Shown here: one piece after another, positions 2,433 through 21,381 of the stretch
How positions within the stretch are numbered: position 1 is the stretch's first letter
Layout: each line of letters opens with the position of its first letter
NCBI GenBank assembly: GCA_002695065.1
Contig: NZNW01000151.1
Coordinates: 19,278 to 55,525 of the forward strand
Direction: 5' to 3'
DNA: 36,248 nt
From: Salinicola sp.
GTDB taxonomy: Bacteria; Pseudomonadota; Gammaproteobacteria; Pseudomonadales; Halomonadaceae
The notes under the pieces: model-generated
What the model was told of the DNA's origin: nothing
What the model saw: only the letters and a program-made list of their open reading frames with translations
Database searches by the model: none
Translations under genes and position numbers: made by a program

Positions 2433-2454
2433 GCCATGCACTCACGTGGCAGCG

Positions 2455-3546: not shown

Positions 3547-3590
3547 GCCGAGCCTATTTTCCTGCCAGAAGTGCGCGCCCATTCAATGTG

Positions 3591-3607
3591 TAGTGTAGAC
3601 TACACTA
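3591..3607. promoter_or_regulatory. Perfect palindrome, probable TetR operator
   Basis: The sequence TAGTGTAG-A-CTACACTA is a perfect 8-bp inverted repeat around one base. It sits in the 124-base gap between the divergent emrA-like and tetR genes. Its size and position are typical of TetR-family operators that control both the regulator and a neighbouring efflux operon. Binding by the adjacent regulator is an inference. Confidence 0.8.
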
Positions 3608-3670
3608 TCTTATTGAAAACGCCACCGCGTCGTATCGAAAAATCCGGCGTTGCCGACACGAGAGAAAGCC

Positions 3671-8090: not shown

Positions 8091-8458
8091 GCCGGCTCCT
8101 CATCTGAATTTGGAGAGCCGCGGGTGTCAGGCGCGTCACTGCGCCTCGCCGCGGCTCGTCGTCTCGAGCGATGATGCCGCGCAACGAAGCGATGACCTGG
8201 GAGACAGGATCACGGGAGCGCGTACATCGTCGATGATCGCCGGCTGCGTCGCGAGCCAGCGGGACAAGCGTTTCGTCACGGAGTGATCGGGCAGCCGGCG
8301 TTGTCAGGACCCCAGGGCCGCCCATCGACAACAGCATAGACAGCTCATCCCGATCCCGCCCAATGCATCGCCAGAAAATTTTGTCGCACGGCGCCCTAAA
8401 GCATTCGACTTCCGCTAAGCTCTTCGGCTGACGAATTTCTACCGGTCGATCGGGGTCG
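8091..8458. other. Divergent intergenic region, no gene seen
   Basis: This 368-base stretch lies between the divergent first gene of molybdenum hydroxylase operon 1 and the Na+/H+ antiporter gene. It must carry promoters for both, but I cannot place convincing -35/-10 boxes. I found no strong palindrome, repeat or credible small coding frame. The part nearest the antiporter (about 8370-8440) is more AT-rich than the rest and is the likeliest promoter zone. Confidence 0.5.
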
Positions 8459-10177
8459 ATGAATACGCTATTTCTGGTTCTGATTCTGCTGCTGGTCGCC
8501 TCGGCGACCGGGGTCGTTACCCGGTTCGTTCCCGCCCTCCCGACACCGCTGGTACAGATATTTCTCGGCGCCCTGCTGGCATGGCCGGCGTCGGGCCTGC
8601 ACGTCGAGCTCGAGCCGGAGATATTCCTGCTGCTGTTCATCGCGCCACTGCTGTTTTCCGATGCCCGGCGCTTCCCCCAGCGCGAGTTCATGATCCTGCG
8701 CGGGCCGATCCTGGCCCTGGCGCTGGGGCTGGTGCTGTTCACGGTGGTCGGGGTCGGCTACTTCATCCATCTCCTGTTCCCGGCGCTGCCGCTGGCGATC
8801 TGCTTTGCCCTGGCGGCGATCCTCTCCCCCACCGATGCGGTGGCGGTATCGTCGATCTCCGGCCGCCTGCCGGTGCCGCCGCGCTTGATGCGAATCCTCG
8901 AGGGGGAGTCGTTGATGAACGACGCCTCCGGCCTGGTGGCGTTCAAGTTCGCCGTCGCGGCGGCGCTGACCGGCACCTTCTCGCTGACCGACGCGGCCGG
9001 GAGCTTCCTGCTGATCTCGATCGGCGGCCTGGTGGTGGGCGGGCTGCTGGCCTTCGGCTTCAATGTCCTGCGCACGCGGCTGATCGAACGCCATCTGGGC
9101 GAGGCCACCACGGTCCAGGTCATCCTGCTGGTGCTGCTGCTCCCCTTCGCCGCCTACCTGCTGGCCGAACATCTCGGCATGTCCGGCATCCTCTCCGCCG
9201 TGGCCGCGGGCATGGTGATGAATCGTGCCGACATCAAGCGCGTCGGCCAGCTCCACACCCGCATGCAGACCCAGGCGGTGTGGGAGATGCTCGAATTCGT
9301 CCTCAACGCGCTGGTCTTTTTGCTGCTGGGGTTCCAGCTGCCGGCGATCATCAGCGGGGCGCTGGACCATTCGCTGCACGATATCGGCGACTACGAATTC
9401 CTGCGCCTGCTGGGCTACGTGGCGGCGATCTCGATCGCCCTGCTCGCCTCGCGCTTCATCTGGATCTGGCTCGCCAGCGCCATCGGGCGGGGGCTGTCGA
9501 GAGTGATGGGCTTCATCAAGCGTCAGCCGCGCCTCCCCCCGCCGGCAAGCACCGGGCAGATTCCGGTGAAGCTGATGCTGGCGGCGACGCTGGCCGGTAT
9601 CCGCGGCACGATCACCCTGGCGGCGGCGCTGTCACTGCCGCACCTGATGAACGACGGCACCGACTTCCCGGCGCGGGAGTTGATGATCTTCCTGGCGACC
9701 GGCGTGATCCTGTTCACGCTGATCACCGGCAGCATCGGCTTGCCGCTGGTACTGCGAAACCTCAAACTCCCCAACGACACCCATGAATTCGAGGAGGAGC
9801 GCAAGGCGCGCATCGCCGGTGCCGAGGCCGCCATCTACCGCATCGAACGCTACCATCACGATCGCACCGGCGAGTTCGCCCGCAACAAGACCAACGACGA
9901 GACGATCATGGCGTTCAACGACATCAGCTCCCAGTTGATGAGCTACTACCGGGAGCGTCTGAACCTGCACTCCGCCGACACCGCCACGCCGCAGCTCGCC
10001 ACCTCCCGCCAGTTGGAGCGCGACACCCGCCTGGAGGCGCTGCGCGCCGAGCGGCGCCAGTACTACAAGCTGCGCCAGCGCGACCGTATCAACGACAATG
10101 TTCTGCGCAAGCTGGTCCGCGAGGTCGATCTGGCCGAAGCGGCGCTGACCGGGGACCAGGGTGTGGCGCATCACTGA
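8459..10177 (+). CDS. CPA1-family Na+/H+ antiporter (NhaP/YjcE type)
   Basis: A 572-residue inner-membrane antiporter. It has about 12 hydrophobic segments in the first 435 residues, then a cytosolic helical tail of about 135 residues rich in charged and glutamine residues. The CPA1 signatures are present: SPTDAVAVSSI with the ion-site aspartate, and EGESLMNDASGLVAFKF with the ND pair. It would exchange cytoplasmic Na+ (or K+/Li+) for H+, useful for salt and pH balance in a halophile. The ATG at 8459 is preceded only by a weak GGGG-like site. It stands alone on its strand before a DUF302 gene 79 bases downstream, so it may or may not share a transcript with it. Confidence 0.92.
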   Translation: MNTLFLVLILLLVASATGVVTRFVPALPTPLVQIFLGALLAWPASGLHVELEPEIFLLLFIAPLLFSDARRFPQREFMILRGPILALALGLVLFTVVGVGYFIHLLFPALPLAICFALAAILSPTDAVAVSSISGRLPVPPRLMRILEGESLMNDASGLVAFKFAVAAALTGTFSLTDAAGSFLLISIGGLVVGGLLAFGFNVLRTRLIERHLGEATTVQVILLVLLLPFAAYLLAEHLGMSGILSAVAAGMVMNRADIKRVGQLHTRMQTQAVWEMLEFVLNALVFLLLGFQLPAIISGALDHSLHDIGDYEFLRLLGYVAAISIALLASRFIWIWLASAIGRGLSRVMGFIKRQPRLPPPASTGQIPVKLMLAATLAGIRGTITLAAALSLPHLMNDGTDFPARELMIFLATGVILFTLITGSIGLPLVLRNLKLPNDTHEFEEERKARIAGAEAAIYRIERYHHDRTGEFARNKTNDETIMAFNDISSQLMSYYRERLNLHSADTATPQLATSRQLERDTRLEALRAERRQYYKLRQRDRINDNVLRKLVREVDLAEAALTGDQGVAHH

Positions 10178-10198
10178 TCGACACGCTGAACACGCATG

Positions 10199-10222
10199 CT
10201 CGAGCGACATTCTCGAGCGACA
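10199..10222. repeat. Short direct repeat CTCGAGCGACA (two copies, period 13)
   Basis: Two exact copies of CTCGAGCGACA begin 13 bases apart, in the gap between the antiporter stop and the DUF302 gene start. They lie 35-58 bases before the DUF302 ATG, where a regulator or promoter element could sit. A chance duplication is also possible. Confidence 0.4.
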
Positions 10223-10256
10223 CCACCGAACGACATCCTCGACCCGGAGACGACAC

Positions 10257-10772
10257 ATGCCCCGACCGTTCTTCCGCCAACTGCGCCTCGCGCTGATCAC
10301 CGCCGGCCTGCTGGGTTTCACCGCCGGCGTATCGGCGCAGTCGACACCGCCTGCCGAATCCGCACAGGAGACGACGCCATCCGTTCCCGGCATGATCGTC
10401 GCCAGGAGCGACGCCGGCGTGCACGAAACCGCCATCCGCTTCGCCGAACAGGCGCGCACCAGCGGCATGACCGTATTCGCCCGGGTCGATCACCGCCAGG
10501 GCGCGATGTCTCGCAGCATGGCGCTGCTGCCCAACGAAGTGATCATCTTCGGCGATCCCAAGGGTGGCACGCCGCTGATGCAGTGCGCTCCGACCGCCGG
10601 GATCGACCTGCCAATGAAGGCGCTGGTCTGGCAGGATGCGGATGGCCAGACCTGGCTCGGCTACAACGACCCGGCGTGGATCGCCCAGCGCCACGGCGTC
10701 GCCGACTGCCCCGCCGTCGAACCGCTCCAGCAGGCGATGCGGAAGCTGGTCGAGGCGACGCTGCAGGAGTGA
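10257..10772 (+). CDS. Secreted DUF302 protein
   Basis: A 171-residue protein with a clear Sec signal peptide: RQLRLALITAGLLGFTAGVSAQ gives a basic start, a hydrophobic core and an AxA-like cleavage site near residue 23. The rest is a DUF302 domain with typical elements: VARSDAGVHETAIRFAEQA, DHRQGA, IIFGDPKGGTPLM, DLPMKALVWQDADG and GYNDP. DUF302 proteins bind small molecules or act in redox homeostasis in some bacteria, but no general function is established. The start at 10257 has GGAG upstream; a longer open frame begins at 10161 but has no signal-like start. It ends 81 bases from the convergent SDR gene. Confidence 0.88.
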   Translation: MPRPFFRQLRLALITAGLLGFTAGVSAQSTPPAESAQETTPSVPGMIVARSDAGVHETAIRFAEQARTSGMTVFARVDHRQGAMSRSMALLPNEVIIFGDPKGGTPLMQCAPTAGIDLPMKALVWQDADGQTWLGYNDPAWIAQRHGVADCPAVEPLQQAMRKLVEATLQE

Positions 10773-10853
10773 TGTCGTGATGAAGGGCCGTCACCCCATG
10801 TCCAGGAAAGGAGAGCCGGCGGCGGTGCTGGAACCGGCCCGGCTTCGGTACAG

Positions 10854-11597
10854 CTAGGCTCTTAACCCCGCGGTGACGAACCCGCCATCGACGGCCAGGA
10901 CCTGCCCAGTGACGTAGGAAGCCTCGTCGGAGAGCAGGAACGCCACCGCATTGGCGACTTCATCGGGCTGGCCGTATCGATTCAGGGAGACGCGCTGATG
11001 CCACTGGTCGCGCACTTCGTCGGTATGGATGGCGCGCGCCAGCGGGGTGTCTATCGGCCCGGGGGCCACGGAGTTGACGCGGATCCCCCGCGAGCCCAAT
11101 TCGCACGCCATCACGCGGGTCAGCGCATCCTGCCCGGCCTTGGAGGCGCCATAGGCGCTGCGCCCCTTGTTGCCGCAGAGGCCCGAGACCGACGAAATAT
11201 TGACGATGCTCCCGGCGAGCCCTCGCGTCGTCCAGTAGCGGGCCAGCTCGCGCGATACCACGAAGGATCCGACCACGTTGACGTCGAGTATCCTGCGGAA
11301 CTCCTCGACGCCCGTTTCGATGGTCGACTTGTCGATGCCGATACCGGCGCAATTGACGACGCCGACCAGTCGGTAGCGCTCGGACAAGGCCGCGATGGCC
11401 GCTTCGATGGCCGCCTCGTCGGTGACGTCGCACGCGACGCCATCGCACGATGGTGCGTCCAGCCCGGCGCAGGCTTCCGCCAGGCCGGCTTCGGAGCGAT
11501 CGATGAGGCATACCGCCAATCCCCGCGTCTTCAACGTTCTTGCCACGGCCAAACCGATACCGGAGGCCCCTCCGGTCACCACCACTGCGTCTTGCAT
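10854..11597 (-). CDS. Short-chain dehydrogenase/reductase (catabolic operon)
   Basis: A 247-residue classical SDR. It has the cofactor motif VTGGASGIG (about residues 7-15), the DRS acidic region that favours NAD(H), NCAGIG, the catalytic SSVSG...YGASK set, and the C-terminal VDGGF. It resembles FabG-like 3-hydroxyacyl or secondary-alcohol dehydrogenases. The start at 11597 has GAGGATG upstream; a GTG at 11642 directly at the upstream gene's stop is less likely. It is the last gene of the thiolase-ligase-PPC-PPC-SDR operon. A role in oxidising a hydroxy intermediate (for example 3-hydroxyacyl-CoA) before thiolysis fits, but this is inferred from context. Confidence 0.9.
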   Translation of the reverse strand: MQDAVVVTGGASGIGLAVARTLKTRGLAVCLIDRSEAGLAEACAGLDAPSCDGVACDVTDEAAIEAAIAALSERYRLVGVVNCAGIGIDKSTIETGVEEFRRILDVNVVGSFVVSRELARYWTTRGLAGSIVNISSVSGLCGNKGRSAYGASKAGQDALTRVMACELGSRGIRVNSVAPGPIDTPLARAIHTDEVRDQWHQRVSLNRYGQPDEVANAVAFLLSDEASYVTGQVLAVDGGFVTAGLRA

Positions 11598-11642
11598 AGC
11601 GCCATCCTCGTGAGCTTTCGATTCGCGACCCGCCCCTGACAC

Positions 11643-12062
11643 TCAAGCCGGCTCTTCACCGTCGGGTATCCACTCCTCCAGCGTCACCTCGAAGGTCATG
11701 CAGACGGGATTCCAGCCGGCCAGGAAGGGCCCGCCGTAGACGTTGCCGTCGGTGTCCGCGACGATACCCGCCAGCGAGGCGACGGGAACGCCGTCGGCTC
11801 CGGAGCGGACCTCACCGGCGATACTGACCACCTCCACCGCCGGACCGGATACTTGCTGATAGCCACCATCGCGCGTGCCCAGGCTGGCGTCGACCAGACT
11901 CCCCAGCCCGCCTCGCACGAAGGCGTTCCGGAACCCTTCGGCCAGGCACATTTTCTCGACGCCCTGGACGAGGTCCTCGTTCGGCGCAATGCGGGCGTAG
12001 GCCACGCGCCCCATCCGCCCCGACTCTGTGATCACGACTCGCGTCGTCTCCGTAGTCGACAT
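11643..12062 (-). CDS. PPC/DUF296-domain protein, short form lacking the histidine motif
   Basis: A 139-residue single-domain protein of the PPC (plants and prokaryotes conserved, DUF296) fold. Family features are ARIAPNEDLVQGVEKMC, the FVRGGLGSLVDASLG core, VEVVSIAGEV, and TDGNVYGG followed by a final CMTFEVTLEEW strand. In many bacterial PPC proteins the equivalent positions read HxH and GGH. Here they read ASLAG (about 96-99) and GGPF (111-113), so all three histidines are absent. Bacterial PPC proteins form trimers and their function is mostly unknown; in plants the domain accompanies AT-hooks, but there is no AT-hook here. It follows a second PPC gene directly (one base between them), which suggests the two products form a pair. 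Confidence 0.82.
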   Translation of the reverse strand: MSTTETTRVVITESGRMGRVAYARIAPNEDLVQGVEKMCLAEGFRNAFVRGGLGSLVDASLGTRDGGYQQVSGPAVEVVSIAGEVRSGADGVPVASLAGIVADTDGNVYGGPFLAGWNPVCMTFEVTLEEWIPDGEEPA

Positions 12063-12063
12063 G

Positions 12064-12609
12064 TCACGACTCCTTGAACGGCTTCAACAAGGGAATGTTG
12101 GTCTCGTCGTCGAACGCCTGGCGCAGCTCGAACCCTTCGAGCGCCGTGACCAGCACGGAAATCGGCGTGGCGCCGATGATCGATGCCTGAGGCACGATAT
12201 GGCCGCCCTTGACGCTGCCGTCCTCGACGCGAACGGAAGCGTGGCAATGGACCAGGGGCCGCCCTTCCATGTCCTTGCCCAGGGTGGCATTGCCGAACAC
12301 CATGAACGACGCCCCCGCGTCGATGGGGCTGGAGTAGGCGATGACGGCCTTGCCGCTCGGGTCGGGAGGCGCGACGCAGTACTCGAGATGATCGAAGTGG
12401 CCACCCAGGATGGTGGTCGATGCGCTGGTGACGCCGATGGCCTGCAACGGCCGGACCAGCGCGTCGTAGAGCGAGCGCCCAGGCTGGAGCAGCAGCCGGA
12501 TATGACGGCCGCTTTGATAGTGCATGCTCTGGATCCGCACCGGACTGAAGCGACCGACATGGCGCAGCATGCGGGGCCGGTGATAACCGGACTGCAGCGT
12601 GGGGCTCAT
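12064..12609 (-). CDS. PPC/DUF296-domain protein, long form with HxH and GGH motifs
   Basis: A 181-residue protein, also of the PPC/DUF296 family. After an N-terminal extension of about 25 residues rich in arginine and histidine come RLLLQPGRSLYDALV, SASTTILGGHF (64-72), FGNATLG, then VHCHASV with H121 and H123, GGHI with H137, and a closing VLVTAL strand. The C-terminal tail contains DDETNIPLLKP. The three histidines are placed as in PPC proteins thought to bind a metal. The start overlaps the ligase stop by ATGA, so it is translationally coupled. Together with the histidine-less PPC protein just downstream it may make a hetero-oligomer working with the thiolase or ligase. The function is unknown; DNA binding and an enzymatic role are both possible. 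Confidence 0.8.
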   Translation of the reverse strand: MSPTLQSGYHRPRMLRHVGRFSPVRIQSMHYQSGRHIRLLLQPGRSLYDALVRPLQAIGVTSASTTILGGHFDHLEYCVAPPDPSGKAVIAYSSPIDAGASFMVFGNATLGKDMEGRPLVHCHASVRVEDGSVKGGHIVPQASIIGATPISVLVTALEGFELRQAFDDETNIPLLKPFKES

Positions 12610-14219
12610 GAGCGTGCCTCCCGATCCTCGATGGCTTGCCGGATGATCTTCTTGGTGATCTTGCCGTAGTTGGATTTCGGCAACGCCTCGAAGAGGTGAT
12701 AACGGCGCGGCACCTTGTAGCTCGAGACTCGCTCCTTGACCCAAGCCTGCAGCGCTTCCACGTCCAGTTGGCTACCCTCGGACGGCACCACCGCCGCGAC
12801 GCCGACCTCCCCCCACTGCTCGTCCGGCATCCCGACGATCGCCACTTCCCGAATCCCGGGATGGGTCAGCATCTTCTCCTCGATCTCCCGCGGATAGATG
12901 TTGGAGCCCCCCGAAATGAACATGTCGGAAGCGCGCCCGGTGATATAGAGAAATCCCTCTTCATCGAGATGCCCCAGGTCGCCGGTACGGAACCAGCCAT
13001 GGCGGAACGACTTCGCATTGGCTTCCGGATTGGCGTAGTAGCCGGCGAAGACACCGAGGCCACAGACACAGATCTCCCCCGTTTCATGGGGTGGCAGTTC
13101 ACGCCCTTCGTCATCCTGCACGGAAACCTGCATGGCGGTTCTGTCGTAGCCGCAGGTGCCGATCTTGAAGCCGCCGTCATCGGCGCTATGGAGGCTCGGT
13201 GGCAGCACGGTGATGTTTCCAGTGACCTCGCCCAGGCCGTAATACTGCACCAGCACCTTGCCGAGCCGCTCGAGCGCCCGTTTCTGATCGGCGCGATACA
13301 TCGGCGCGCCGGCATAGATGACGTAGCGCAGCGATGAATGGTCGTAGCGCTCGCAGGCGGGATCCTCGACCAGCATCTTGACGATGGTCGGCACGGTGAA
13401 CAGGTTGGTGATGCGATGCGTCTCGATCAGACGCCAGATCTCGTCGCCATCGAAGCCACTGGCCGTGGGCAACACGGTCTTGACCCCACGCGCCAGTTGG
13501 GTGAGGTAGTGTATTCCCGAGCCGTGGGACAGCGGTGCCACGACCAGACTGGCATCGGTCGCCTGATCCGTGCCGGGCATGAGATCGCAGAGGTGATTGG
13601 TGGTGATGAACCCCATCTGGCCATGCGTCAGCACCGCCGCCTTAGATTTTCCCGTCGTGCCCGAGGTGAAGAAGAACCAGCAGGGGTCATCGTGCTCCAC
13701 GTCGGCGTTGGCGCACGCCTGACCCTCGTACTCGCGCAGGAAGTCGTCGTATGCGGCATCGCCGAACGTCCCCTCCCCAATTCTTACGGTAAAGGTGAGA
13801 CCCGGGCCGATGTCGCGAATGGCCTCGTAGTGGCGCTCGAATTCCGCCCCGATGACAAGGATCCTGGCTTCGGTCAATTCGGCAAGCCACTGGGCCTCGC
13901 CGGGGGAGATCCGAAAGTTCGCCGGTGCCCACACCGCCCCCAGCCGAAACGCCGCCAGTTGGGTCTCCACCATCTCGAAACCGTTACGGCTATGGACCAG
14001 CAATCGATCTCCTTTGCCCAGGCCCCGTGCTTTCAGCGCCAGCGCCAGCGCGCTGACGCGCCGATCCAGCTCGCGCCATGACAGAGAGGCTTCGCCCATC
14101 GCCAAGGCCGGCGCATCGGGATATCGCCGCATCGCCTGGCTCAGGAAGTTGGCGAGGTTCATCACTCGCTTGCTGACCGGCACGATGCCGCCTGCCGGCT
14201 GTCGTACCGCCCCGCTCAT
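12606..14219 (-). CDS. AMP-forming acyl-CoA synthetase/ligase
   Basis: A 537-residue member of the ANL adenylate-forming superfamily. Motifs in order: the phosphate-binding FFFTSGTTGKSKAAVLTH at about 188-205, PLSHGSG, YYGLGEVTG (A5), GWFRTGDLG (A7), the hinge ITGRASDMFISGGSNIYPREIE (A8), and the catalytic lysine in SNYGKITKK near the C-terminus. It would activate a free carboxylic acid to its CoA thioester through an acyl-AMP. The length and motifs fit medium- or long-chain or aryl acyl-CoA ligases; the substrate cannot be read from sequence. Its start overlaps the thiolase stop by ATGA. Being directly downstream of a thiolase in an operon regulated with a TRAP importer suggests that it activates the imported carboxylate or its oxidation product. 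Confidence 0.93.
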   Translation of the reverse strand: MSGAVRQPAGGIVPVSKRVMNLANFLSQAMRRYPDAPALAMGEASLSWRELDRRVSALALALKARGLGKGDRLLVHSRNGFEMVETQLAAFRLGAVWAPANFRISPGEAQWLAELTEARILVIGAEFERHYEAIRDIGPGLTFTVRIGEGTFGDAAYDDFLREYEGQACANADVEHDDPCWFFFTSGTTGKSKAAVLTHGQMGFITTNHLCDLMPGTDQATDASLVVAPLSHGSGIHYLTQLARGVKTVLPTASGFDGDEIWRLIETHRITNLFTVPTIVKMLVEDPACERYDHSSLRYVIYAGAPMYRADQKRALERLGKVLVQYYGLGEVTGNITVLPPSLHSADDGGFKIGTCGYDRTAMQVSVQDDEGRELPPHETGEICVCGLGVFAGYYANPEANAKSFRHGWFRTGDLGHLDEEGFLYITGRASDMFISGGSNIYPREIEEKMLTHPGIREVAIVGMPDEQWGEVGVAAVVPSEGSQLDVEALQAWVKERVSSYKVPRRYHLFEALPKSNYGKITKKIIRQAIEDREARS

Positions 14220-15385
14220 CGGCTGCGCTCCATGACGCTGACGTAGTTCGCCACGGCGGCTCCGCCCATGTTGAACACGCCGGCCAGATTGGCACCGGGG
14301 ATTTGCATGTCGCCGGCCTCACCCATCAGCTGCATGCAGGCCATCACGTGCATCGAGACGCCGGTAGCCCCCACGGGATGGCCCTTGGCCTTGAGCCCGC
14401 CGGAAGGGTTGACCGGCAGCCGGCCATCCTTGTAAGTCCAGCCCTCGCGAATGGCACGATGGCCTTCACCGGGAGCCGTCAGCCCCATGGCTTCGTACTC
14501 GATCAATTCGGCGATCGTGAAACAGTCATGGGTTTCCACGACATCGAGGTCATCGAGGGTAATCCGGGCACTCTCCAATGCCGCGCGCCAGGCGCCGGCC
14601 GCACCGGTAAACGCCAGGGGATCACGGCGACTCAAGGCCATGATGTCGTTTTTCTGAACCCGGGAACGGAAAGCGATGGCCCGCTCCAGCGTCAGCGCCG
14701 TCTCCTCGTCGGCGAGCAGGATCGCCGCGGCACCGTCGGAGACCAGCGAACAATCGGTACGGCGCAACGGATCGGCCACGATGGGATTGTTGTCGCTGAC
14801 GGTATGGCAGAACTCGAACCCCAGATCCTTGCGCACATGGGCGAAAGGATTGGCAACGCCGTTGCGGTGGTTCTTGGCAGCGATGAGCGCCAGTTCCTCG
14901 CGCCGGTCGCCGTAGCGACGAAAATACTCATCCGCGATGCTCGCGAAGACACCAGGAAAGCCGCCTGCGGTCATCTCTTCCTTGCGATAGCTGGCACCCA
15001 GCAGGACGTCGCCGACCTCCGAGGTCGGCAGTGACGTCATTTTCTCCGCCCCTACCACCAGGGCGATTCTGCCACGGCCGGATTCGATGAAATCCAGCCC
15101 CGCATGCAGGGCGGCGGAGCCGGTGGCGCAAGCGTTCTCGAGCCGTGTCGCCGGCGTGTGCATGAGCTCGTCGTCCGCCATCGCCACCAGGGCGGCCTGG
15201 AAATCCTGTTTGGAGAATCCGTTGTTCATGACCCCCAGGTAGATGGCGTCGACATCGGCTGCCGGCACGCCTCCATGCTGCAGAACGTCCTTCACGACCT
15301 GGCCGATCATCGCTTCCGTGTCCGGCTCGGTACGTTTCCCGAAGGGAAGATGCGACCAACCGACTATCCGCGCTCGAGTTGACAT
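14216..15385 (-). CDS. SCP2-type thiolase family protein
   Basis: A 389-residue thiolase of the sterol-carrier-protein/SCP-x-like branch. Catalytic Cys86 lies in LENACATGSAAL. The HDCF motif (instead of the NEAF of classic thiolases) and GGLKAKGHPVGATG with the catalytic histidine are present. The C-terminal CxG loop of classic degradative thiolases is replaced by FNMGGAAVANYV, as usual in this branch. Such proteins catalyse thiolytic or retro-aldol cleavage of acyl-CoA and often need a DUF35 partner; none is present here. The start at 15385 has AGGAG at ideal spacing, and a perfect palindrome, probably the IclR operator, lies just upstream (15397-15413). It is the first gene of a five-gene operon that includes two PPC-domain proteins. 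Confidence 0.92.
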   Translation of the reverse strand: MSTRARIVGWSHLPFGKRTEPDTEAMIGQVVKDVLQHGGVPAADVDAIYLGVMNNGFSKQDFQAALVAMADDELMHTPATRLENACATGSAALHAGLDFIESGRGRIALVVGAEKMTSLPTSEVGDVLLGASYRKEEMTAGGFPGVFASIADEYFRRYGDRREELALIAAKNHRNGVANPFAHVRKDLGFEFCHTVSDNNPIVADPLRRTDCSLVSDGAAAILLADEETALTLERAIAFRSRVQKNDIMALSRRDPLAFTGAAGAWRAALESARITLDDLDVVETHDCFTIAELIEYEAMGLTAPGEGHRAIREGWTYKDGRLPVNPSGGLKAKGHPVGATGVSMHVMACMQLMGEAGDMQIPGANLAGVFNMGGAAVANYVSVMERSR

Positions 15386-15396
15386 GTTTTCTCCTG

Positions 15397-15413
15397 ATTC
15401 CATAAAATGGAAT
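15397..15413. promoter_or_regulatory. IclR-type operator 1, before the thiolase operon
   Basis: ATTCCAT-AAA-ATGGAAT is a perfect 7-bp inverted repeat with a 3-base spacer. It ends 12 bases before the thiolase ATG and directly abuts its ribosome site. The core TTCCATAAAATGGAA recurs on the opposite strand at 18311-18325 and, with changes, at 18518-18532. The pattern TTCC-N7-GGAA fits known IclR-family operators. Assignment to the IclR encoded at 15526 is inferred. A poorer copy (GGCCACATTATGGAA, 15495-15509) lies just before the iclR gene itself and could give autoregulation. Confidence 0.8.
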
Positions 15414-15525
15414 AAACAAATCGGCTTTATTTCAAGTTATTCGCCGACTATCAGGCCTTCAACATAAAAATCGATGATATCGACCAAATAATTAGGCCAC
15501 ATTATGGAACACGAGGACCAACGTG

Positions 15526-16311
15526 ATGAGTTCAGGCCATATTCAGGGGGCTCAGTCCACCTATCGCACCATGCAAGTGCTTCGCGCCATCGCCGGACAA
15601 CTGGGCAAAGGGGTATCGCTCGCCTACATCACCCAGCAGACGACACTCTCCAAACCCACCGTACATCGCCTGCTTCAAGCGCTCATGGCCGAAGGCATGG
15701 TCGAGAGAAGCGACGAGGAGGGGTACTTTCTCGGCCCGGAGTGCTATGCACTGGGCGTGATCGCCAACCAGCGCTATGGACTGAGCCAGATCGCCTCGAC
15801 GCCGGTGGCACGAATCGCCGCCGACACTGGAGACAGCGCCTTCTTTTCGCTGCGCAGCGAATGGCATTCGATCTGCCTGATCCGCGAGGACGGCAGCTAT
15901 CCGATCAAGACGCATGTGCTGCAACCGGGCACGCGGCTACCACTCGGGGTCGGCGGCGGCGGCATCGCCATGCTCGCCGCCATGGACGACGACGAGATCG
16001 AGCAGTGCCTGGAGGCCAACGCGGAGGAGTGCGCTGCGCGCTTCCCCAACGATCAGCGCGAGGATCATCGCCCCCGCATTGCCGAGTGCCGCGCACTGGG
16101 TTACGGCATCAACCGCGGCTCGGTGGTTTCCGGCTCGTGGGGAATCGGTGCCGCGGTGCGTGATTGTCACGGCCGGGTGCTGGGCTCTCTCTCGGTTGCC
16201 GCCATCGAGAGCCGCATGCAACCGGATCGCCAGCGCGAGCTGGGCCCGCGCCTGGTAAAGGAAGCCCAGGCCCTCGAGGCGAAGATCCGAAAAGCCCAGA
16301 TGACCAGGTGA
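15526..16311 (+). CDS. IclR-family transcriptional regulator
   Basis: A 261-residue regulator. The N-terminal winged helix (about residues 12-75) has QSTYRTMQVLRAIAG, LAYITQQTTLSKPTVHRLLQAL and the wing GYFLGPECYALG, all typical of IclR. The C-terminal effector domain contains LPLGVGGGGIAMLA and GYGINRG...GIGAAVRD, the usual small-molecule pocket elements. I chose the ATG at 15526, with GAGG nine bases upstream; the adjacent GTG at 15523 is possible. It diverges from the thiolase operon and probably controls it, together with the two TRAP-associated operons, through the repeated 15-bp palindromes. The effector is likely the imported carboxylate or a breakdown product. Whether it activates or represses is not visible. 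Confidence 0.93.
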   Translation: MSSGHIQGAQSTYRTMQVLRAIAGQLGKGVSLAYITQQTTLSKPTVHRLLQALMAEGMVERSDEEGYFLGPECYALGVIANQRYGLSQIASTPVARIAADTGDSAFFSLRSEWHSICLIREDGSYPIKTHVLQPGTRLPLGVGGGGIAMLAAMDDDEIEQCLEANAEECAARFPNDQREDHRPRIAECRALGYGINRGSVVSGSWGIGAAVRDCHGRVLGSLSVAAIESRMQPDRQRELGPRLVKEAQALEAKIRKAQMTR

Positions 16312-16329
16312 GCCGGACTGTCCGGCTCA
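16309..16329. terminator. Hairpin between convergent genes, formed from both stop codons
   Basis: TGAGCCGGA-CTG-TCCGGCTCA is a perfect 9-bp stem with a 3-base loop. Its two ends are the TGA of iclR and, on the other strand, the TGA of the SDR gene. It may act as a compact bidirectional terminator or mRNA 3' end stabiliser. Neither side has a convincing T-run, so rho-independent termination is not certain. Confidence 0.6.
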
Positions 16330-17130
16330 TCCGACGGCGGCGCGCAGCGAGAACCCTCCGTCGACATTCAGGCTGACGCCGGTGACATATCGTGCCATGT
16401 CGGAGGCGAGAAACAGCGAGGCGTTGGCAACGTCCCAGGCATCCCCCATGAACCCCATGGGACATTGGCGATTGCGCTTCTCGATCATCGCCTCGGCATC
16501 ACCACCGTAGGCCGCCGTCAATGGCGCATGGATCATTGGCGTGTTCATGAGCCCAGGCAGTATGCAGTTGGCGCGGATGCCGTCGGCAGCATACTGAGCC
16601 GCCAGATTCTCGGTGAAGGCGACGATCGCCGCCTTGGAGGTGGTGTAGGCCGAGTAGGCGAAACCGATCCAGCGCAGCGCGGCAATCGAGGAGATATTCA
16701 CGATGCTTCCCGCGCCTTGCCGGCGCATGATCGGCAGTACGTGCTTGCAGATCAGAAAAACGCTGGTCTGATTGATTCGCAAGACACGCTCCCACTCCTC
16801 CTCCGACGTCTCCTCGGGACCTCCCGTGATGGCAATGCCCACGTTGTTGTGCAGCACATCGATACCCCCCAGATGCCCCATCGCGGCCTCGACCATTGCA
16901 ATGATGTCATCGGTTCGGCTCACGTCTGCCGCTACCGTTTCGCAGAATCCCCCTTCGGCCTGAATCAAGGCCTGGGTTGCGCGCGCCGCCTCCAGGTCGC
17001 GATCCACGGCGATCACGCGAGCACCTTCACGGGCGTAGGCCACAGCCGCTGCCTTGCCATTCCCCCAGCCCTCACCACAGGAGCCGGCCCCCACAACCAT
17101 AACGCGCCTGTCATTCAGCAACGCCTTCAT
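16327..17130 (-). CDS. Short-chain dehydrogenase/reductase (TRAP-linked operon)
   Basis: A 267-residue SDR. The cofactor loop reads VVGAGSCGEGWGNG, which departs from the usual TGxxxGIG and is longer. The rest is typical: VDRD after beta-2 (NAD preference), the NNVG motif, SSIAALRW...YTTSK catalytic serine, tyrosine and lysine, and VDGGFSL at the end. The start at 17130 has AGGAGG upstream; a further in-frame start upstream has none. It lies 69 bases downstream of a TRAP substrate-binding protein gene on the same strand, so both may be transcribed from the IclR-type operator near 18311. It probably oxidises or reduces the imported compound or an early intermediate. It shares only general SDR similarity with the SDR at 10854-11597. 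Confidence 0.9.
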   Translation of the reverse strand: MKALLNDRRVMVVGAGSCGEGWGNGKAAAVAYAREGARVIAVDRDLEAARATQALIQAEGGFCETVAADVSRTDDIIAMVEAAMGHLGGIDVLHNNVGIAITGGPEETSEEEWERVLRINQTSVFLICKHVLPIMRRQGAGSIVNISSIAALRWIGFAYSAYTTSKAAIVAFTENLAAQYAADGIRANCILPGLMNTPMIHAPLTAAYGGDAEAMIEKRNRQCPMGFMGDAWDVANASLFLASDMARYVTGVSLNVDGGFSLRAAVG

Positions 17131-17199
17131 GTTCGCCTCCTCGCAACTGTTGTGCACCGGCCGATGGACATGACGGCCGGCTCGATGCCCGATGCCGAG

Positions 17200-18210
17200 T
17201 CATTCAGCGTCACGCACCCCAGCTATGGTTTGCTCGAAACTTTCGACCAGCTCAGGGCCAACCTTCCGGGACCAGGAATCGAACGTCTGGCGCGTGGCCT
17301 GCTGAAAAGCCGCCAGCTCGGCATCCTCCAGCCGCGTGACCTTCATGCCATGCTCGACAAGGATGTCGTATCCGGACTCGGTCTGTTCGCGAGTGAGTGA
17401 TTTCTGATACGCCATCGCCTCCTCGGCGGCCTGGCGCATAGTCGTCTGCATATCGGGACTCCAGGACTCCCATTTCGCCCGACTGACGGCAAGGAAGGCG
17501 GGATCGTATGAGTAGTGCCAGTCGGTCAGGTAAGTCTGAACCTCGTAAATCCGCTGTGGCACGATGATGGCGCCGACAGGATTCTCCTGCCCATCGACCA
17601 CACCCTGCTGCAGCGCCGAGAAGGTTTCGGTCCACTGGATCTGCTGCGGGTTGGCACCCAGCTCATCCATGACGTCGATGAACATCGGACCGGCAACGCG
17701 AACCTTCATGCCGCGCAGATCGTCGGGCGAGGATACCGGCTTGACGCTGTTGGTCAGCTCGCGGAAACCGCTCTCCCCCCAGCCGAGCACGACCAGACCA
17801 TGCTCTGCCATGATCTGCTCCATCCGACGAGCCGGTTCGCCCTCGAGCGTGGCATCGACCTCGTCGTAGTTGCGATACAGGTAAGGCAGGGAGAAGACCG
17901 CCATTTCCGGTATCAACGGCGACACCGATATAGCGGTCGAGAGCACGAAGTCGATGTCCCCACGCCCCACCATTTCCGCCTGGCGCAATTGATCGCCGCC
18001 AGACAGCACCGCATTGCCGAATACACGAACCTGCATGTCACCGTTGGTCGCCTCATCGACTAGCTGCGCAAAACGCTCGGCGCCCATATTGCGGCTGGTG
18101 GAGTCACTGGTTTCACTGGACAGCCTGAGCGTTTCGGCACTGACTGCTGCCGACGCCACGAGAGTGGCGCAACCCAACGCAACGATCCAAGCCTGTCTGA
18201 ATACTGGCAT
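17200..18210 (-). CDS. dctP: TRAP transporter substrate-binding protein (DctP), copy 1
   Basis: A 336-residue periplasmic solute-binding protein of the DctP family, with a signal peptide ending near SAAVSAET. Conserved parts are GNAVLSGGDQLRQAEMVGRGDIDF, IPEMAVFSLPYL, the ligand-binding region SPDDLRGMKVRVAGPMFIDV, and NPQQIQWTETFSALQQGVVDGQENP. Such proteins bind a carboxylate through a conserved arginine, here probably in KVRVAG. The start at 18210 has AGGAG at good spacing; a longer frame to 18267 lacks a signal-like start. It diverges from a second, closely related DctP gene (18551) that has the membrane subunits behind it. No separate DctQM accompanies this copy, so it probably shares them. 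Confidence 0.93.
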   Translation of the reverse strand: MPVFRQAWIVALGCATLVASAAVSAETLRLSSETSDSTSRNMGAERFAQLVDEATNGDMQVRVFGNAVLSGGDQLRQAEMVGRGDIDFVLSTAISVSPLIPEMAVFSLPYLYRNYDEVDATLEGEPARRMEQIMAEHGLVVLGWGESGFRELTNSVKPVSSPDDLRGMKVRVAGPMFIDVMDELGANPQQIQWTETFSALQQGVVDGQENPVGAIIVPQRIYEVQTYLTDWHYSYDPAFLAVSRAKWESWSPDMQTTMRQAAEEAMAYQKSLTREQTESGYDILVEHGMKVTRLEDAELAAFQQATRQTFDSWSRKVGPELVESFEQTIAGVRDAE

Positions 18211-18310
18211 AACGATCTCCTGATCCTTCGAAAGTGGGTGCCGAGTCATGACCGACTCCCGGAGCATCGTGAACCCACACCCACCTCAGCAATACGACAT
18301 ATTAACTACA

Positions 18311-18325
18311 TTCCATTTTATGGAA
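18311..18325. promoter_or_regulatory. IclR-type operator 2, upstream of dctP copy 1
   Basis: TTCCATTTTATGGAA is a perfect 6-bp inverted repeat with a TTT spacer. It is the exact reverse complement of the core of the site before the thiolase gene (15398-15412). It lies about 100 bases upstream of the dctP copy 1 start, a plausible activation or repression position. Confidence 0.78.
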
Positions 18326-18517
18326 CAAAGAAAGCCCACGTCGTAGCGCCATGCAATGCCGAAACGTCGATAACAACGCCCCTGTCCATCGGGGAAACAA
18401 GCGTGTCATGACGCCGAATGAAGTGAAAAACTGGAAATAACTGGACGCTATTTACAACCATCGTCCAATTTCGCAGACAGGTGGCGTCAGTCACTCTTCG
18501 CTCAACAAGAAATAAAA

Positions 18518-18532
18518 TTCCACTTTGCGGAA
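18518..18532. promoter_or_regulatory. IclR-type operator 3, upstream of dctP copy 2
   Basis: TTCCACTTTGCGGAA matches the other two sites in TTCCA-N-TTT-N2-GGAA and is close to the classic IclR half-site pattern. It ends 18 bases before the dctP copy 2 ATG, a position where bound protein would block transcription initiation. Confidence 0.75.
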
Positions 18533-18550
18533 CATTAAAGGCGAACGACG

Positions 18551-19552
18551 ATGAAGCTCTCGATAATCCCGACGGCAGTCGCACTGTGCTTGGCGCTATC
18601 ATCCAACTTGGCTCAGGCGGAGACCTATCGCCTGACGCACAACACTTCCGATGCCACGTCCTGGCAAAAAGGCGCAGAGAAATTCAACGAGCTGCTGGCA
18701 CAGGCTTCCGATGGCGACATCGGCGTGCGCATCTTCCCCAATGCCGTGCTCTCCGGCGGCGACCAGATGAAGCAGTCGGAGATGGTGGGGCGTGGGGACA
18801 TCGATTTCGTCATCACCTCGGCCATCAATGTCACCCCGCTGATTCCGGAGATGGCGGTGTTCTCGCTCCCCTATCTGTTCACCGACTACGAACAGGTGGA
18901 TCGCGCCATCCAGGGCGAGCCGGGCGATGCCGTGAAGGATATCGCCCGGGATAAAGGTATCGAGATTCTCGCCTGGGGCGAGAACGGTTTCCGCGAGCTG
19001 ACCAACAGCGTCAAGCCGGTATCCTCGCCCGACGATCTGCGCGGCATGAAGATCCGCGTCGCCGGACCGATGTATATCGATGTGTTCGACGCGCTGGGCG
19101 CCAACCCGCAACAGATCCAGTGGACCGAAACCTTTTCGGCGCTCCAGCAGGGCGTGGTCGATGGGCAGGAGAACCCGGTGGGATCGATCATCGTGCCGCA
19201 GCGTCTCTACGAGGTGCAGGACTACCTCACCGAGTGGCACTACTCCTACGACCCGATCTTCGTCGGCGTCAGCGAACGACTCTGGAACAGCTGGGACGCC
19301 GACACGCAGTCCCTGGTACGAGACGCCGCCCAGCAGGCGATGGCCTACCAGCGAAACCTGGCCCGCGAGCAGACGAGCACCGGGGTGGACACACTGAAGC
19401 AGAACGGCATGGAGATCACCACGCTGGATGAAGATCAGCTTCAGGCCTTCCGGGATGCTACCAGCGACGTCTACGACCAGTGGGCAGCGCGCGTGGGTGA
19501 GGATCTGGTGCAGACCTTCGAGCAGTCGGTCGGCGAAGCGGACAGCCAGTAG
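18551..19552 (+). CDS. dctP: TRAP transporter substrate-binding protein (DctP), copy 2
   Basis: A 333-residue periplasmic binding protein with a signal peptide ending about SNLAQAET. It is a close paralogue of the divergent DctP at 17200-18210: the segments GFRELTNSVKPVSSPDDLRG and ANPQQIQWTETFSALQQGVV are identical in both. Differences are spread over the N-terminal signal region, the C-terminal helices and loops around the pocket. It heads a dctP-dctQ-dctM operon, so it is the main binding component. The ligand is probably a carboxylate, transported with Na+ symport, which suits a halophile. The start codon at 18551 has AAAGGCG upstream. Confidence 0.94.
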   Translation: MKLSIIPTAVALCLALSSNLAQAETYRLTHNTSDATSWQKGAEKFNELLAQASDGDIGVRIFPNAVLSGGDQMKQSEMVGRGDIDFVITSAINVTPLIPEMAVFSLPYLFTDYEQVDRAIQGEPGDAVKDIARDKGIEILAWGENGFRELTNSVKPVSSPDDLRGMKIRVAGPMYIDVFDALGANPQQIQWTETFSALQQGVVDGQENPVGSIIVPQRLYEVQDYLTEWHYSYDPIFVGVSERLWNSWDADTQSLVRDAAQQAMAYQRNLAREQTSTGVDTLKQNGMEITTLDEDQLQAFRDATSDVYDQWAARVGEDLVQTFEQSVGEADSQ

Positions 19553-19585
19553 CCGGGTGTCCAGGCAGAACGAGGGTGGAACATC

Positions 19586-20062
19586 ATGCGATCAGTCTGG
19601 CGCCATCTCGAGGAAGTCATCTGCGGCTGCGTGTTTCTCTGCATGACGCTACTGGGCTTCATCAATGTCGCGGTACGTAATCTCACCAACTACTCGCTGG
19701 CATCGACCCAGGAGCTGATCATCAACGGCATGGTGCTGCTGACGGTCTTCGGCGCGGCGATCGCCGCGAAGAAAGGACAGCACCTCGCGGTCACGGTGTT
19801 CTACGACCTCGTTCCCGCTTCCTTTAAGCGGGCTCTGGTCGTCCTGTCGACGCTGTTGATCATTGCGACCCTGGCGCTATGCACGCTGTTCACGGTGACG
19901 CTGCTGAGCCACCAATTCACCAGCGGCGTCGTTTCCAGCGCGCTGCAGATACCGCAGTGGTACTACACGCTGATCGTGCCGCTGGGGTTCCTCATGCTGA
20001 TGATCCGCCAGCTCGAGCTGGCCATCGCCGAATTCCGACGGCCGGGAGACGCCTCATGCTAG
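19586..20062 (+). CDS. dctQ: TRAP transporter small membrane subunit (DctQ)
   Basis: A 158-residue protein with four transmembrane segments (about residues 10-30, 45-62, 82-106 and 122-145), the standard DctQ layout. The conserved EL motif region (STQELIINGMVLLTVFGAAIAAKKGQHLAV) is present. It forms the scaffold linking the binding protein to the DctM channel. The start at 19586 has GAGGGTGG upstream. Its last codons overlap the start of dctM by seven bases, which shows translational coupling. Confidence 0.93.
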   Translation: MRSVWRHLEEVICGCVFLCMTLLGFINVAVRNLTNYSLASTQELIINGMVLLTVFGAAIAAKKGQHLAVTVFYDLVPASFKRALVVLSTLLIIATLALCTLFTVTLLSHQFTSGVVSSALQIPQWYYTLIVPLGFLMLMIRQLELAIAEFRRPGDASC

Positions 20063-21381
20063 ACCTCTCAGCCGGTACGCAGATGATCATCCTGTTCTTC
20101 GTGCTGGTCCTCATTCGTGTCCCGGTGGCATTCAGCCTGGCGCTCTCCGCGATGGCCGCCATGTACGTGATGGGCTTCGGCCTCGACATGGTCGGTGACC
20201 TGATCGTCTCCGGCATCGCCAAGTACTCGCTGCTGGCCATTCCGTTCTTCATCCTCGCCGGCAACATCATGGGTATCACCGGCATTGCCGAGAAGATGAT
20301 CAACTTCTTCCGCACACTGGTGGGCGGTCTTCCGGGTGGGATGGGGCTGGTCGGCACCGTCGTCTGCCTGTTCTGGGGAGCGGTCAGCGGCTCAGGGCCG
20401 GCGTCGGTGGCGGCGATCGGGCCGCTGATCATTCGCGGCATGGTCGCCGACGGCTACTCCCGCGCCTTCGCGGCGGGCCTGGGCTGGACGGGCGCCGCCC
20501 TGTCCCTGATCATTCCGCCGTCGATCGGCCTGGTGATCTACGGGATTCTGGCGGGCACGTCCATTTCGGACCTGTTCCTGGCCGCCATTCTGCCGGGCTT
20601 GATGCTTGGCGTGCTGATGCTCTGCGCACTGCCGTTCGCCAAACTGATGCCCCCGCCGACAGCCGGCGAAAGCGCAGCGGCAGACACCTCCTTTCGACGG
20701 GTAGTGGAACGAGGAGACGGGCAACCCTACGCCAAACGTCTATTACGCTCGTTCCGTGAAGCCTTCTGGGGTCTGCTCACCCCCGTCGTCATTCTCGGCG
20801 GTATCTACGGCGGGCTGTTCACGCCCACCGAGGCGGCCATCGTGGCGACGGTATTCGCCATGTTCGTCGGCTTCTTCATCTATCGCACACTCAGCCTGCG
20901 CTCGTTGTTCGCCTGCGTGGCGGAATCGGCAGGGTCATCGGCGGTGGTCATGCTGGTCGTGGCGTTCGCCAGCCTCTTCGGTTGGGTAGTGGTCGTGGAC
21001 GGGCTGGTCAGCGACTACTCCGATGCCCTGCTCGGCGTGAGCCAGAGCCCTTGGGTCATCGTCCTGATGATGATGATCATTCTGCTGCTGGCCGGCATGT
21101 TCATGGACGCCATCACCATCATGTTCATCACCCTGCCGATCTTCATGCCGGTGGTTCAGCAGCTAGGGCTCGATCCGACCTGGTTTGGCGTGGCGCTGAT
21201 GACGGCGCTCTCCATCGGCCTCATCACCCCACCGGTGGGCATCAACCTGTTCGTGGCGGCCAATATCACCGGCCTGCCATTGGGGCGTATCGCCCGAGGC
21301 GTCGTCCCTTTCCTGATCGTCTCTTTGATCGGCTTGCTGATCGTGACCTACGTGCCGGCCATCTCGCTGATTGCGCTGTAA
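20056..21381 (+). CDS. dctM: TRAP transporter large membrane subunit (DctM)
   Basis: A 441-residue inner-membrane transporter with about 12 hydrophobic segments. It carries typical DctM features: IRVPVAFSLALSA, SLLAIPFFILAGNIMG, GAVSGSGPASVAAIG, PPSIGLVIYGILAGTS, FTPTEAAIVA, and ITPPVGINLFVAANI near the end. It is the Na+-coupled carboxylate symport subunit. The start at 20056 lies inside the dctQ 3' end; the frame is open further upstream only because of the overlap. A perfect hairpin follows at 21399-21420, closing the operon. Confidence 0.95.
   Translation: MLDLSAGTQMIILFFVLVLIRVPVAFSLALSAMAAMYVMGFGLDMVGDLIVSGIAKYSLLAIPFFILAGNIMGITGIAEKMINFFRTLVGGLPGGMGLVGTVVCLFWGAVSGSGPASVAAIGPLIIRGMVADGYSRAFAAGLGWTGAALSLIIPPSIGLVIYGILAGTSISDLFLAAILPGLMLGVLMLCALPFAKLMPPPTAGESAAADTSFRRVVERGDGQPYAKRLLRSFREAFWGLLTPVVILGGIYGGLFTPTEAAIVATVFAMFVGFFIYRTLSLRSLFACVAESAGSSAVVMLVVAFASLFGWVVVVDGLVSDYSDALLGVSQSPWVIVLMMMIILLLAGMFMDAITIMFITLPIFMPVVQQLGLDPTWFGVALMTALSIGLITPPVGINLFVAANITGLPLGRIARGVVPFLIVSLIGLLIVTYVPAISLIAL

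Follow-up and report, generated by a model that had tools for sequence, protein, structure and literature searches.

In the description by Price et al. 2019 (PMC6365646), a CoA-synthetase, a FabG-like beta-hydroxyacyl-CoA dehydrogenase and a thiolase are proposed for the deoxyribonate route of Klebsiella michiganensis M5al. By that proposal, acetyl-CoA and an acyl-CoA of shorter chain arise from a beta-hydroxy acid; the thiolase is given as 47-50% identical to acetoacetyl-CoA thiolases. 2-Acetolactate is a reported ligand of TRAP transporters (PMC5812351). We analysed a window, i.e. a whole stretch of 36,248 nucleotides, of Salinicola sp. (assembly GCA_002695065.1, contig NZNW01000151.1, positions 19,278 to 55,525). 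Positions 10854-21381 of the window harbour 11 genes, for an SCP2-type thiolase, an AMP-forming ligase, two proteins of the PPC/DUF296 family (PPC2 and PPC1), two short-chain dehydrogenases (SDR1 and SDR2), an IclR-family regulator, two TRAP solute-binding proteins (DctP1 and DctP2) and the TRAP permease subunits DctQ and DctM.

We propose that this block is a catabolic island under IclR control, spread by horizontal exchange and dedicated to a single small beta-hydroxy or beta-keto acid, and that PPC2 and PPC1 form one metal-dependent enzyme of the pathway. We give this reading a probability of roughly 0.6. The unity of the gene set is well supported, and a pathway of this type is likely. The sequence of its steps, their direction and the nature of the substrate are inferred. 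An earlier note on this DNA had suggested a dedicated carboxylate catabolic system with PPC participation, which the conservation of the set supports. All the genes that it named were recovered when families were assigned with Pfam and NCBIfam; its gene list was correct, and the starts of PPC2, the thiolase, DctM and DctP1 are corrected here.

Presence or absence of the gene set as one block

The genome of origin (4.68 Mb, 153 contigs) has Salinicola corii as its closest named relative, with PPC2 proteins 99% identical. We looked for the Na/H exchanger and molybdopterin dehydrogenase genes that flank the cluster in 17 other Salinicola genomes (loci and genomes are hereafter cited by our L and G labels). 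Both flanking orthologues are on one contig in 12 of them. They are 0.7-1.5 kb apart in eight (G002, G004, G005, G008, G010, G011, G015 and G016) and 9.2-11.4 kb apart in the other four (G003, G007, G013 and G017; in G013 the distance was measured to a partial match, query 2-460). In each of those four the thiolase lies between the flanks, and they are exactly the other Salinicola genomes with a thiolase match. Of the remaining five genomes, four have no exchanger match and G006 has only a paralogous dehydrogenase. The interval is present or absent at a single site and therefore behaves as one block, a pattern compatible with either gain or loss. The cluster limits of the earlier note are close to those of this block. 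A PPC2 search of 58 genomes (the own genome and relatives) yielded four full-length matches, all within the cluster, in the own genome and three other Salinicola.

Thiolase homologues from more distant genomes were collected by best match, not at random. Matches were found in 17/250 Halomonadaceae genomes (E 1e-100), 60/295 genomes of the Jannaschia rubra family (1e-100), 4/67 genomes of the family of L010 (1e-130), 7/399 of its order (1e-145) and 53/385 of the class of L011 (1e-145). We fetched the regions around 13 of the 17 Halomonadaceae places, the other four being the window and L006-L008, and around 40 of the 65 places in the Jannaschia rubra family, in which G273 already corresponds to L011. 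We also fetched six of the seven places in the order of L010, the seventh being L010 itself, and 20 of the 53 in the class of L011. Three short loci from the four genomes of the L010 family (L057-L059) were left out of the counts, and L034, which duplicates L009, was discarded. Related gene sets were found in Halomonadaceae, Burkholderiales, Rhodobacterales and Rhizobiales and are often plasmid-borne.

In the 86 loci examined, PPC genes adjoin 42 of the 47 full-length ligases scoring at least 700 bits (window-type ligases) and none of the 19 full-length ligases of 250-700 bits. The 700-bit cut was set after the scores were seen. The hidden Markov models were applied, among others, to the loci from which they had been made. 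Three ligase matches short of full length were not counted (L010, L066 and a second one in L074), and the ligase of L073, truncated at the end of its contig, scored under the 250-bit floor. The check proposed earlier, conserved co-occurrence, thus showed the gene set to be kept together across genomes. In a tree of 83 thiolases (L046, L066 and L073 left out), the PPC label, carried by 42 rows, needs five changes, compared with a mean of 28.1 after shuffling; none of 500 shuffles gave a value as low. Chance clustering was rejected on the basis of this co-inheritance across loci and of the presence or absence of the block at one Salinicola site.

On the tree, the Salinicola/Vreelandella version falls with Burkholderiales, and its PPC genes are separate. 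A second Halomonadaceae version (L036-L040) nests among the Jannaschia family loci and has a tandem PPC gene. The placement of these two Halomonadaceae versions apart on the tree fits horizontal transfer.

Other thiolase groups were seen in the same tree. Alphaproteobacteria thiolases at 58-64% identity (L083, L084, L111-L115, L118-L120 and L123-L127) group together, with no PPC gene within 5.5 kb and mostly no ligase; they are possibly an older branch related to the thiolase of the island. Two further groups, L041-L045 and L085-L099, are 51-59% identical, and many of their loci have a lower-scoring ligase and an SDR and no PPC gene. They look like parallel acid-degradation clusters. A gene read as coding for a PAS-domain protein is common to 11 of the 22 loci then classed as lacking PPC.

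Predicted enzymes and proposed pathway

Catalytic residues were examined in alignments drawn from loci chosen for carrying PPC (residues in domain numbering for the thiolase). The thiolase residues C83, H283-D284-C285 and H333, corresponding to the Cys, HDCF and GH residues, are found in 42/42 sequences, and the conserved ligase motifs in 41/41. SDR1 is FabG-like, and S149, Y162 and K166 together with D46, the Asp that follows the nucleotide-binding strand, are present in 26/26 aligned homologues. A Ser-Tyr-Lys triad with such an Asp is typical of an active, NAD-type SDR. We propose that SDR1 is a 3-hydroxyacyl-CoA or 3-hydroxyacid dehydrogenase. The earlier note had seen no dehydrogenase of a known pathway and no match to a described route. 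Neither statement is supported, given SDR1 and given that the combination of ligase, SDR and thiolase follows the logic proposed for K. michiganensis (PMC6365646).

A ligase, an SDR and a thiolase without an acyl-CoA dehydrogenase or hydratase suggest that the beta carbon of the substrate already carries a hydroxyl group or is oxidised. In the proposed pathway, DctP2, and its paralogue DctP1, would bind the acid and DctQM would import it. The ligase would then form its CoA thioester at the expense of ATP, SDR1 and/or SDR2 would oxidise the beta-hydroxyl group with NAD, and cleavage of the beta-keto thioester by the SCP2-type thiolase would yield acetyl-CoA plus a shortened acyl-CoA. PPC2, with its HxH...GH site, and PPC1, a partner without the site, would together be one metal-dependent enzyme of the same pathway. 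Their substrate would most likely be the free acid or its CoA thioester, close to the ligase step, and their reaction a decarboxylation, a rearrangement or a hydrolysis. IclR would act via three palindromes.

No further enzyme clearly recurs in the clusters among the loci compared. Their neighbours vary by locus and include genes for a transketolase (L131), valine-type enzymes (L135), an FGGY kinase (L136, L146) and an acetolactate synthase (L101, L149).

PPC proteins

We aligned PPC domains from separate genes and from tandem halves, with domain matches above 60 bits; the first half of the tandem gene of L061, which is interrupted, was left out. In the domain numbering, G20, Y93, G112, H122, H124, G137 and H138 are invariant in 43/43 PPC2 domains, with the His residues forming an HxH...GH triad. 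P28, G55, S56, E78, T124 and E126 are invariant in 44/44 PPC1 domains, and the His triad is absent from the PPC1 alignment. Judging from these residues, PPC2 is the candidate catalytic subunit and PPC1 its putative non-metal partner, the pairing, the metal and the catalysis all being predictions. PPC1 and PPC2 both pass the PF03479 gathering cut-off of 25 bits, which is missed by one of the four tandem proteins scanned (L070, 22.9 bits).

A full-length tandem PPC match, in which PPC2 is the first half, was found in 27 loci. In L070 (7145-12549) and Agrobacterium L132 (12612-14510), a tandem gene coexists with separate PPC2 and PPC1 genes; the tandem and separate forms may not be simple equivalents. 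An Lrp/AsnC-type gene is found nearby in both, annotated in L132 and read from the sequence in L070.

The tandem PPC protein of L039 was modelled with a mean pLDDT of 96.9. A Foldseek search with this model returned eight matches at E <= 0.001, all of them PPC proteins of ~140 residues, including AF0104, the title of which reads 'metal-containing'. The next high-probability match is 1xv2, an acetolactate-decarboxylase-like protein (probability 0.98, E 0.033, TM-score 0.27-0.30). Neither PPC1, PPC2 nor the four tandem proteins matched PF03306, the family of alpha-acetolactate decarboxylase (ALDC), at E up to 1.

A broader claim can be put forward more tentatively, at somewhat less than even odds. 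The PPC2/PPC1 pair or the tandem protein might represent a new class of metal-dependent enzymes with an acetolactate-decarboxylase-like fold, acting on a beta-oxo or alpha-hydroxy-beta-oxo acid or CoA thioester in an acid-degradation route widespread in alpha-, beta- and gammaproteobacteria. If this is true, public records mislabel these bacterial proteins as 'PPC domain-containing DNA-binding protein'.

Palindromes and regulation

The three similar palindromes described earlier are present, just upstream of the thiolase, dctP1 and dctP2 genes (Table 1). A degenerate palindrome pattern, written after the sites were seen, gave seven strand-matches compared with 0.15 expected, and none of 100 shuffles reached seven; one strand-match is a fourth, two-mismatch place at 15494. 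The pattern TTCCRYNNNRYGGAA occurs at seven places in the whole 4.68-Mb genome, three of which are those in the cluster, and the reversed control pattern at two. With one mismatch allowed, the six other Salinicola-type loci (L006-L009, L035 and L046) also have sites upstream of thiolase/iclR or dctP. The density of the pattern over all 86 loci is 0.047 per kb. IclR is the putative binder of the palindromes and the proposed regulator of the island. The IclR protein itself stays below every NCBIfam cut-off, the best being that of BhcR (108 of 350 bits).

Plasmid carriers and locus variants

The thiolase is found in 83 plasmid records (E <= 1e-100) and tandem-PPC relatives in 63, and we examined 28 plasmid regions. 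The carriers include Sinorhizobium meliloti Ak57 pSymB, Agrobacterium tumefaciens, Bartonella sp. HY328, Rhizobium leguminosarum, Sulfitobacter indolifex, Paracoccus denitrificans PD1222, Roseomonas mucosa and Variovorax paradoxus. P. denitrificans PD1222, a laboratory strain, has the thiolase, ligase, tandem PPC, SDR and IclR genes and a TRAP system. Public records label the PPC proteins 'DUF296 domain-containing', 'PPC domain-containing DNA-binding protein', 'DNA-binding protein' or hypothetical.

In tblastn comparisons, the plasmid thiolases, where present, are 59-72% identical to that of the window, and the ligases (>500 bits) 52-63%. DctP is 60-65% identical and accompanied by a separate DctQ in L136, L137, L138, L142, L143, L144 and L158. 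It is only 27-31% identical in L131-L133, L135, L139, L140, L145, L146, L148, L149, L151, L154, L155 and L157. In these, the permease, where annotated, is one long subunit with no separate DctQ, presumably a fused DctQM.

The Chelatococcus (L146, L154) and Phyllobacterium (L153, L155) plasmids keep the ligase, IclR and PPC genes, and all but L153 also the SDRs and a TRAP system. An incomplete gene table had suggested that Phyllobacterium sp. 628 has no ligase; this was rejected, as tblastn shows the gene at L155:1062-2543. In Skermanella mucosa the thiolase and ligase are on one plasmid and the tandem PPC gene on another, and in L134, L141, L150 and L152 the thiolase has no intact PPC gene near it. 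Within plasmid records, PPC is thus somewhat more tightly linked to the ligase than to the thiolase.

Several plasmid loci have additional features. In L135 (R. leguminosarum WSM2304 pRLG203, 7745-11542), PPC is directly followed downstream by genes for an acyl-CoA dehydrogenase and two members of the enoyl-CoA hydratase family and by mmsB. This set is of the valine type and might point to a branched product. L134 (Aminobacter sp. MSH1 pUSP2, 949-14918) has the thiolase, ligase and SDR genes beside IS66-type transposase genes and nitrile hydratase/amidase genes, and only a partial PPC1 match is left, on the opposite strand. The plasmid locus L156 of Vescimonas fastidiosa (1332-11448) has a distant PPC gene, at 25% identity, in a Bacillota gene row with genes for a TRAP transporter, a metallo-beta-lactamase-fold hydrolase and 2-oxoacid-dehydrogenase-type proteins, a possible other catabolic context for a PPC protein.

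Weighing of the proposed function

Several observations weigh against the proposed island and its single pathway. In Salinicola, S. halimionae G017 (L007) has neither SDR2 nor dctP1. G013 (L046) has neither of these nor either PPC gene, and its thiolase, ligase and dctM frames are interrupted. Ligases above 700 bits without PPC are found in L090, L105, L106 and L114 as well as in L046, and L067 and L110 have near thiolases without ligase or PPC. On the whole plasmid records of the Chelatococcus and Phyllobacterium loci, no thiolase was detected at E 1e-60. The TRAP system is not constant, as many loci have another type, with the 27-31% identical DctP. Of the 30 loci listed with an IclR gene, among them the window, only 15 have a palindrome near a cluster gene. 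No firm indication of the substrate comes from the DctP homologues; the nearest solved relative is 4p8b, at 37% identity. Lastly, hhalign of PPC against two Halomonadaceae ALDC proteins gave a probability of 1.1, which is not significant; the only stretch that it aligned is the HxH...GGH motif.

Other functions can be considered for the PPC proteins. Many SCP2-type thiolases have a DUF35 (OB-fold) partner, and PPC2/PPC1 might replace it as a non-enzymatic accessory subunit of the thiolase. Consistent with this, no DUF35 match was obtained with Pfam among the cluster proteins scanned, and the PPC genes adjoin the thiolase gene in L010 and L070. Nevertheless, PPC stays with the ligase on the four Chelatococcus and Phyllobacterium plasmids, on which, in a search of the plasmid records alone, no thiolase was detected, and it is next to the ligase and away from the thiolase in L128. 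The PPC-less near thiolases of L067 and L110 also argue against a thiolase subunit, which we consider unlikely. A DNA-binding or regulatory role, as in the public annotation and in keeping with the known occurrence of the domain in plant AT-hook proteins, is less probable still. The core motif of AT-hooks is RGRP, and a scan of the PPC proteins found no such core and only scattered GRP triplets at non-conserved places. Moreover, among the invariant residues is a His triad of the kind seen at metal sites, and the PPC genes form part of a compact enzyme operon that adjoins the IclR gene. We favour a metal-dependent enzyme for PPC2/PPC1.

The pathway itself might be one for 2-deoxyribonate or another 2-deoxy-sugar acid, functionally equivalent to that of K. 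michiganensis, whose CoA-synthetase, FabG-like dehydrogenase and thiolase follow the same logic (PMC6365646). We regard this as improbable. In a search limited to the cluster proteins, we found no glycerate kinase, CoA-transferase, lactonase or major facilitator superfamily (MFS) transporter. The reported identity of the Klebsiella thiolase to acetoacetyl-CoA thiolases suggests another subfamily, and the PPC proteins have no counterpart among the Klebsiella genes in the passages considered. Of similarly low probability is an acetolactate-type (alpha-hydroxy-beta-keto acid) pathway, in which acetyl-CoA and lactoyl-CoA would arise from acetolactyl-CoA by the action of the ligase and thiolase, with PPC2/PPC1 as an ALDC-like decarboxylase or rearrangement enzyme. 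The Foldseek match to an ALDC-like protein, the alignment of the PPC2 HxH...GGH with the ALDC motif and the acetolactate-synthase genes near L149 (annotated) and L101 (read from the sequence) point in this direction. These neighbours are separated from the operon, however, and the sequence match between PPC and ALDC is not significant and is accompanied by no PF03306 match. 4p8b or 4oan reportedly contains bound 2-acetolactate, but DctP2 is only 37% identical to 4p8b. That 2-acetolactate has been reported as a TRAP ligand (PMC5812351) is compatible with the acetolactate-type pathway. The catabolism of a small beta-hydroxy or beta-keto acid remains our preferred reading.

Gene organization

The thiolase, ligase, PPC2, PPC1 and SDR1 genes form a tight minus-strand operon, with 4-base overlaps at the thiolase/ligase and ligase/PPC2 junctions, one base between PPC2 and PPC1, and PPC1 abutting SDR1. 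The plus strand carries iclR and dctP2-dctQ-dctM (18551-21381), and SDR2 and dctP1 (16327-18210) lie between them on the minus strand. TRAP transporter membership is supported by two matches to PF03480 and one each to PF04290 and PF06808.

Table 1. Genes and operator-like sites of the cluster (window coordinates)
Feature	Coordinates	Strand	Evidence or remark
SDR1, FabG-like short-chain dehydrogenase	10854..11642	-	PF13561; possible later start 11597
PPC1, PPC/DUF296 protein without His triad, invariant Glu residues	11643..12062	-	PF03479, 55 bits
PPC2, PPC/DUF296 protein with HxH...GH metal-site-like motif	12064..12609	-	PF03479, 26.7 bits
AMP-forming acyl-CoA ligase, PRK07470 type	12606..14219	-	NF005676, 856 bits (cut-off 774)
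SCP2-type thiolase, PRK07516 type	14216..15385	-	NF005704, 653 bits (cut-off 412)
Operator-like palindrome 1	15397..15413		between thiolase operon and iclR
IclR-family regulator	15523..16311	+	PF01614, PF09339
SDR2, second short-chain dehydrogenase	16327..17157	-	PF13561
DctP1, second TRAP solute-binding protein	17200..18210	-	PF03480
Operator-like palindrome 2	18310..18326		upstream of dctP1
Operator-like palindrome 3	18517..18533		upstream of dctP2
DctP2, TRAP solute-binding protein	18551..19552	+	PF03480; nearest solved relative 4p8b, 37% identity
DctQ, small TRAP permease subunit	19586..20062	+	PF04290
DctM, large TRAP permease subunit	20056..21381	+	PF06808

PPC2 starts at 12609, in an ATGA overlap with the ligase stop codon. 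A start at 12744 was rejected, as the first 45 residues of that open reading frame (ORF) are ligase sequence in another frame. A fifth, short match of the PPC2 search, in G013, arose for the same reason, the matching sequence being ligase out of frame. As judged from the sequence, the thiolase most likely starts at 15385, and starts at 20056 for DctM and 18210 for DctP1 are more likely than the ORF openings at 19879 and 18267, respectively.

The dctP1 and dctP2 genes share a 305-nucleotide inverted stretch at 86% identity (17483-17787 and 18968-19272), and their proteins are ~60% identical overall. This stretch might reflect recent gene conversion or a strong local constraint. The island copy of L046 (G013:C1:997000-1015000), at 6266-13896, may be a decaying copy or contain assembly errors. 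In L061, L064, L069, L074, L076, L079 and L080, the thiolase, ligase and PPC genes have no TRAP or IclR match within 5.5 kb.

Comparison with known systems

The cluster is undescribed as far as our search of the open-licence literature reaches. That literature, outside of which most subscription journals fall, yielded no DUF296 protein together with a thiolase and a TRAP transporter. It likewise yielded no DUF296 with acetolactate decarboxylase and no PPC domain with acyl-CoA and thiolase. Among 25 listed of its 72 articles with the term DUF296, which also catches DUF2961, no catabolic role was noticed for bacterial PPC/DUF296 proteins. The conserved association of PPC with ligase, thiolase, dehydrogenase and transporter genes in one island gives these proteins a concrete, testable enzymatic role. 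If the proposal is true, it adds a catabolic route on plasmids of soil, marine and skin bacteria.

At the family level, and set against the published description (PMC6365646), the cluster resembles that of K. michiganensis in combining a CoA-synthetase, a FabG-like SDR and a thiolase. It differs by TRAP rather than MFS transporters, by an SCP2-type thiolase and by the added PPC proteins. Its accessory genes are unlike those of K. michiganensis, and we therefore do not file it under the deoxyribonate pathway. With other TRAP clusters that have an IclR regulator it shares carboxylate import by DctP, DctQ and DctM under local control. Unlike them, it has two DctP paralogues beside one DctQM, and the TRAP type varies among loci while the thiolase and ligase stay similar.

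The PPC proteins 3hwu, 3htn, 2dt4 and 2h6l (AF0104) are significant fold matches of the tandem protein and also belong to PF03479. They are ~140 residues long and are titled putative DNA-binding, metal-containing or hypothetical. In contrast with these solved proteins, the PPC proteins of the cluster consist of two diverged domains, as a pair or in tandem, within a catabolic operon. A possible likeness to ALDC (PF03306) would lie in a distant fold similarity, to 1xv2, and in the HxH...GGH motif; they differ from it in having neither significant sequence similarity nor a Pfam match.

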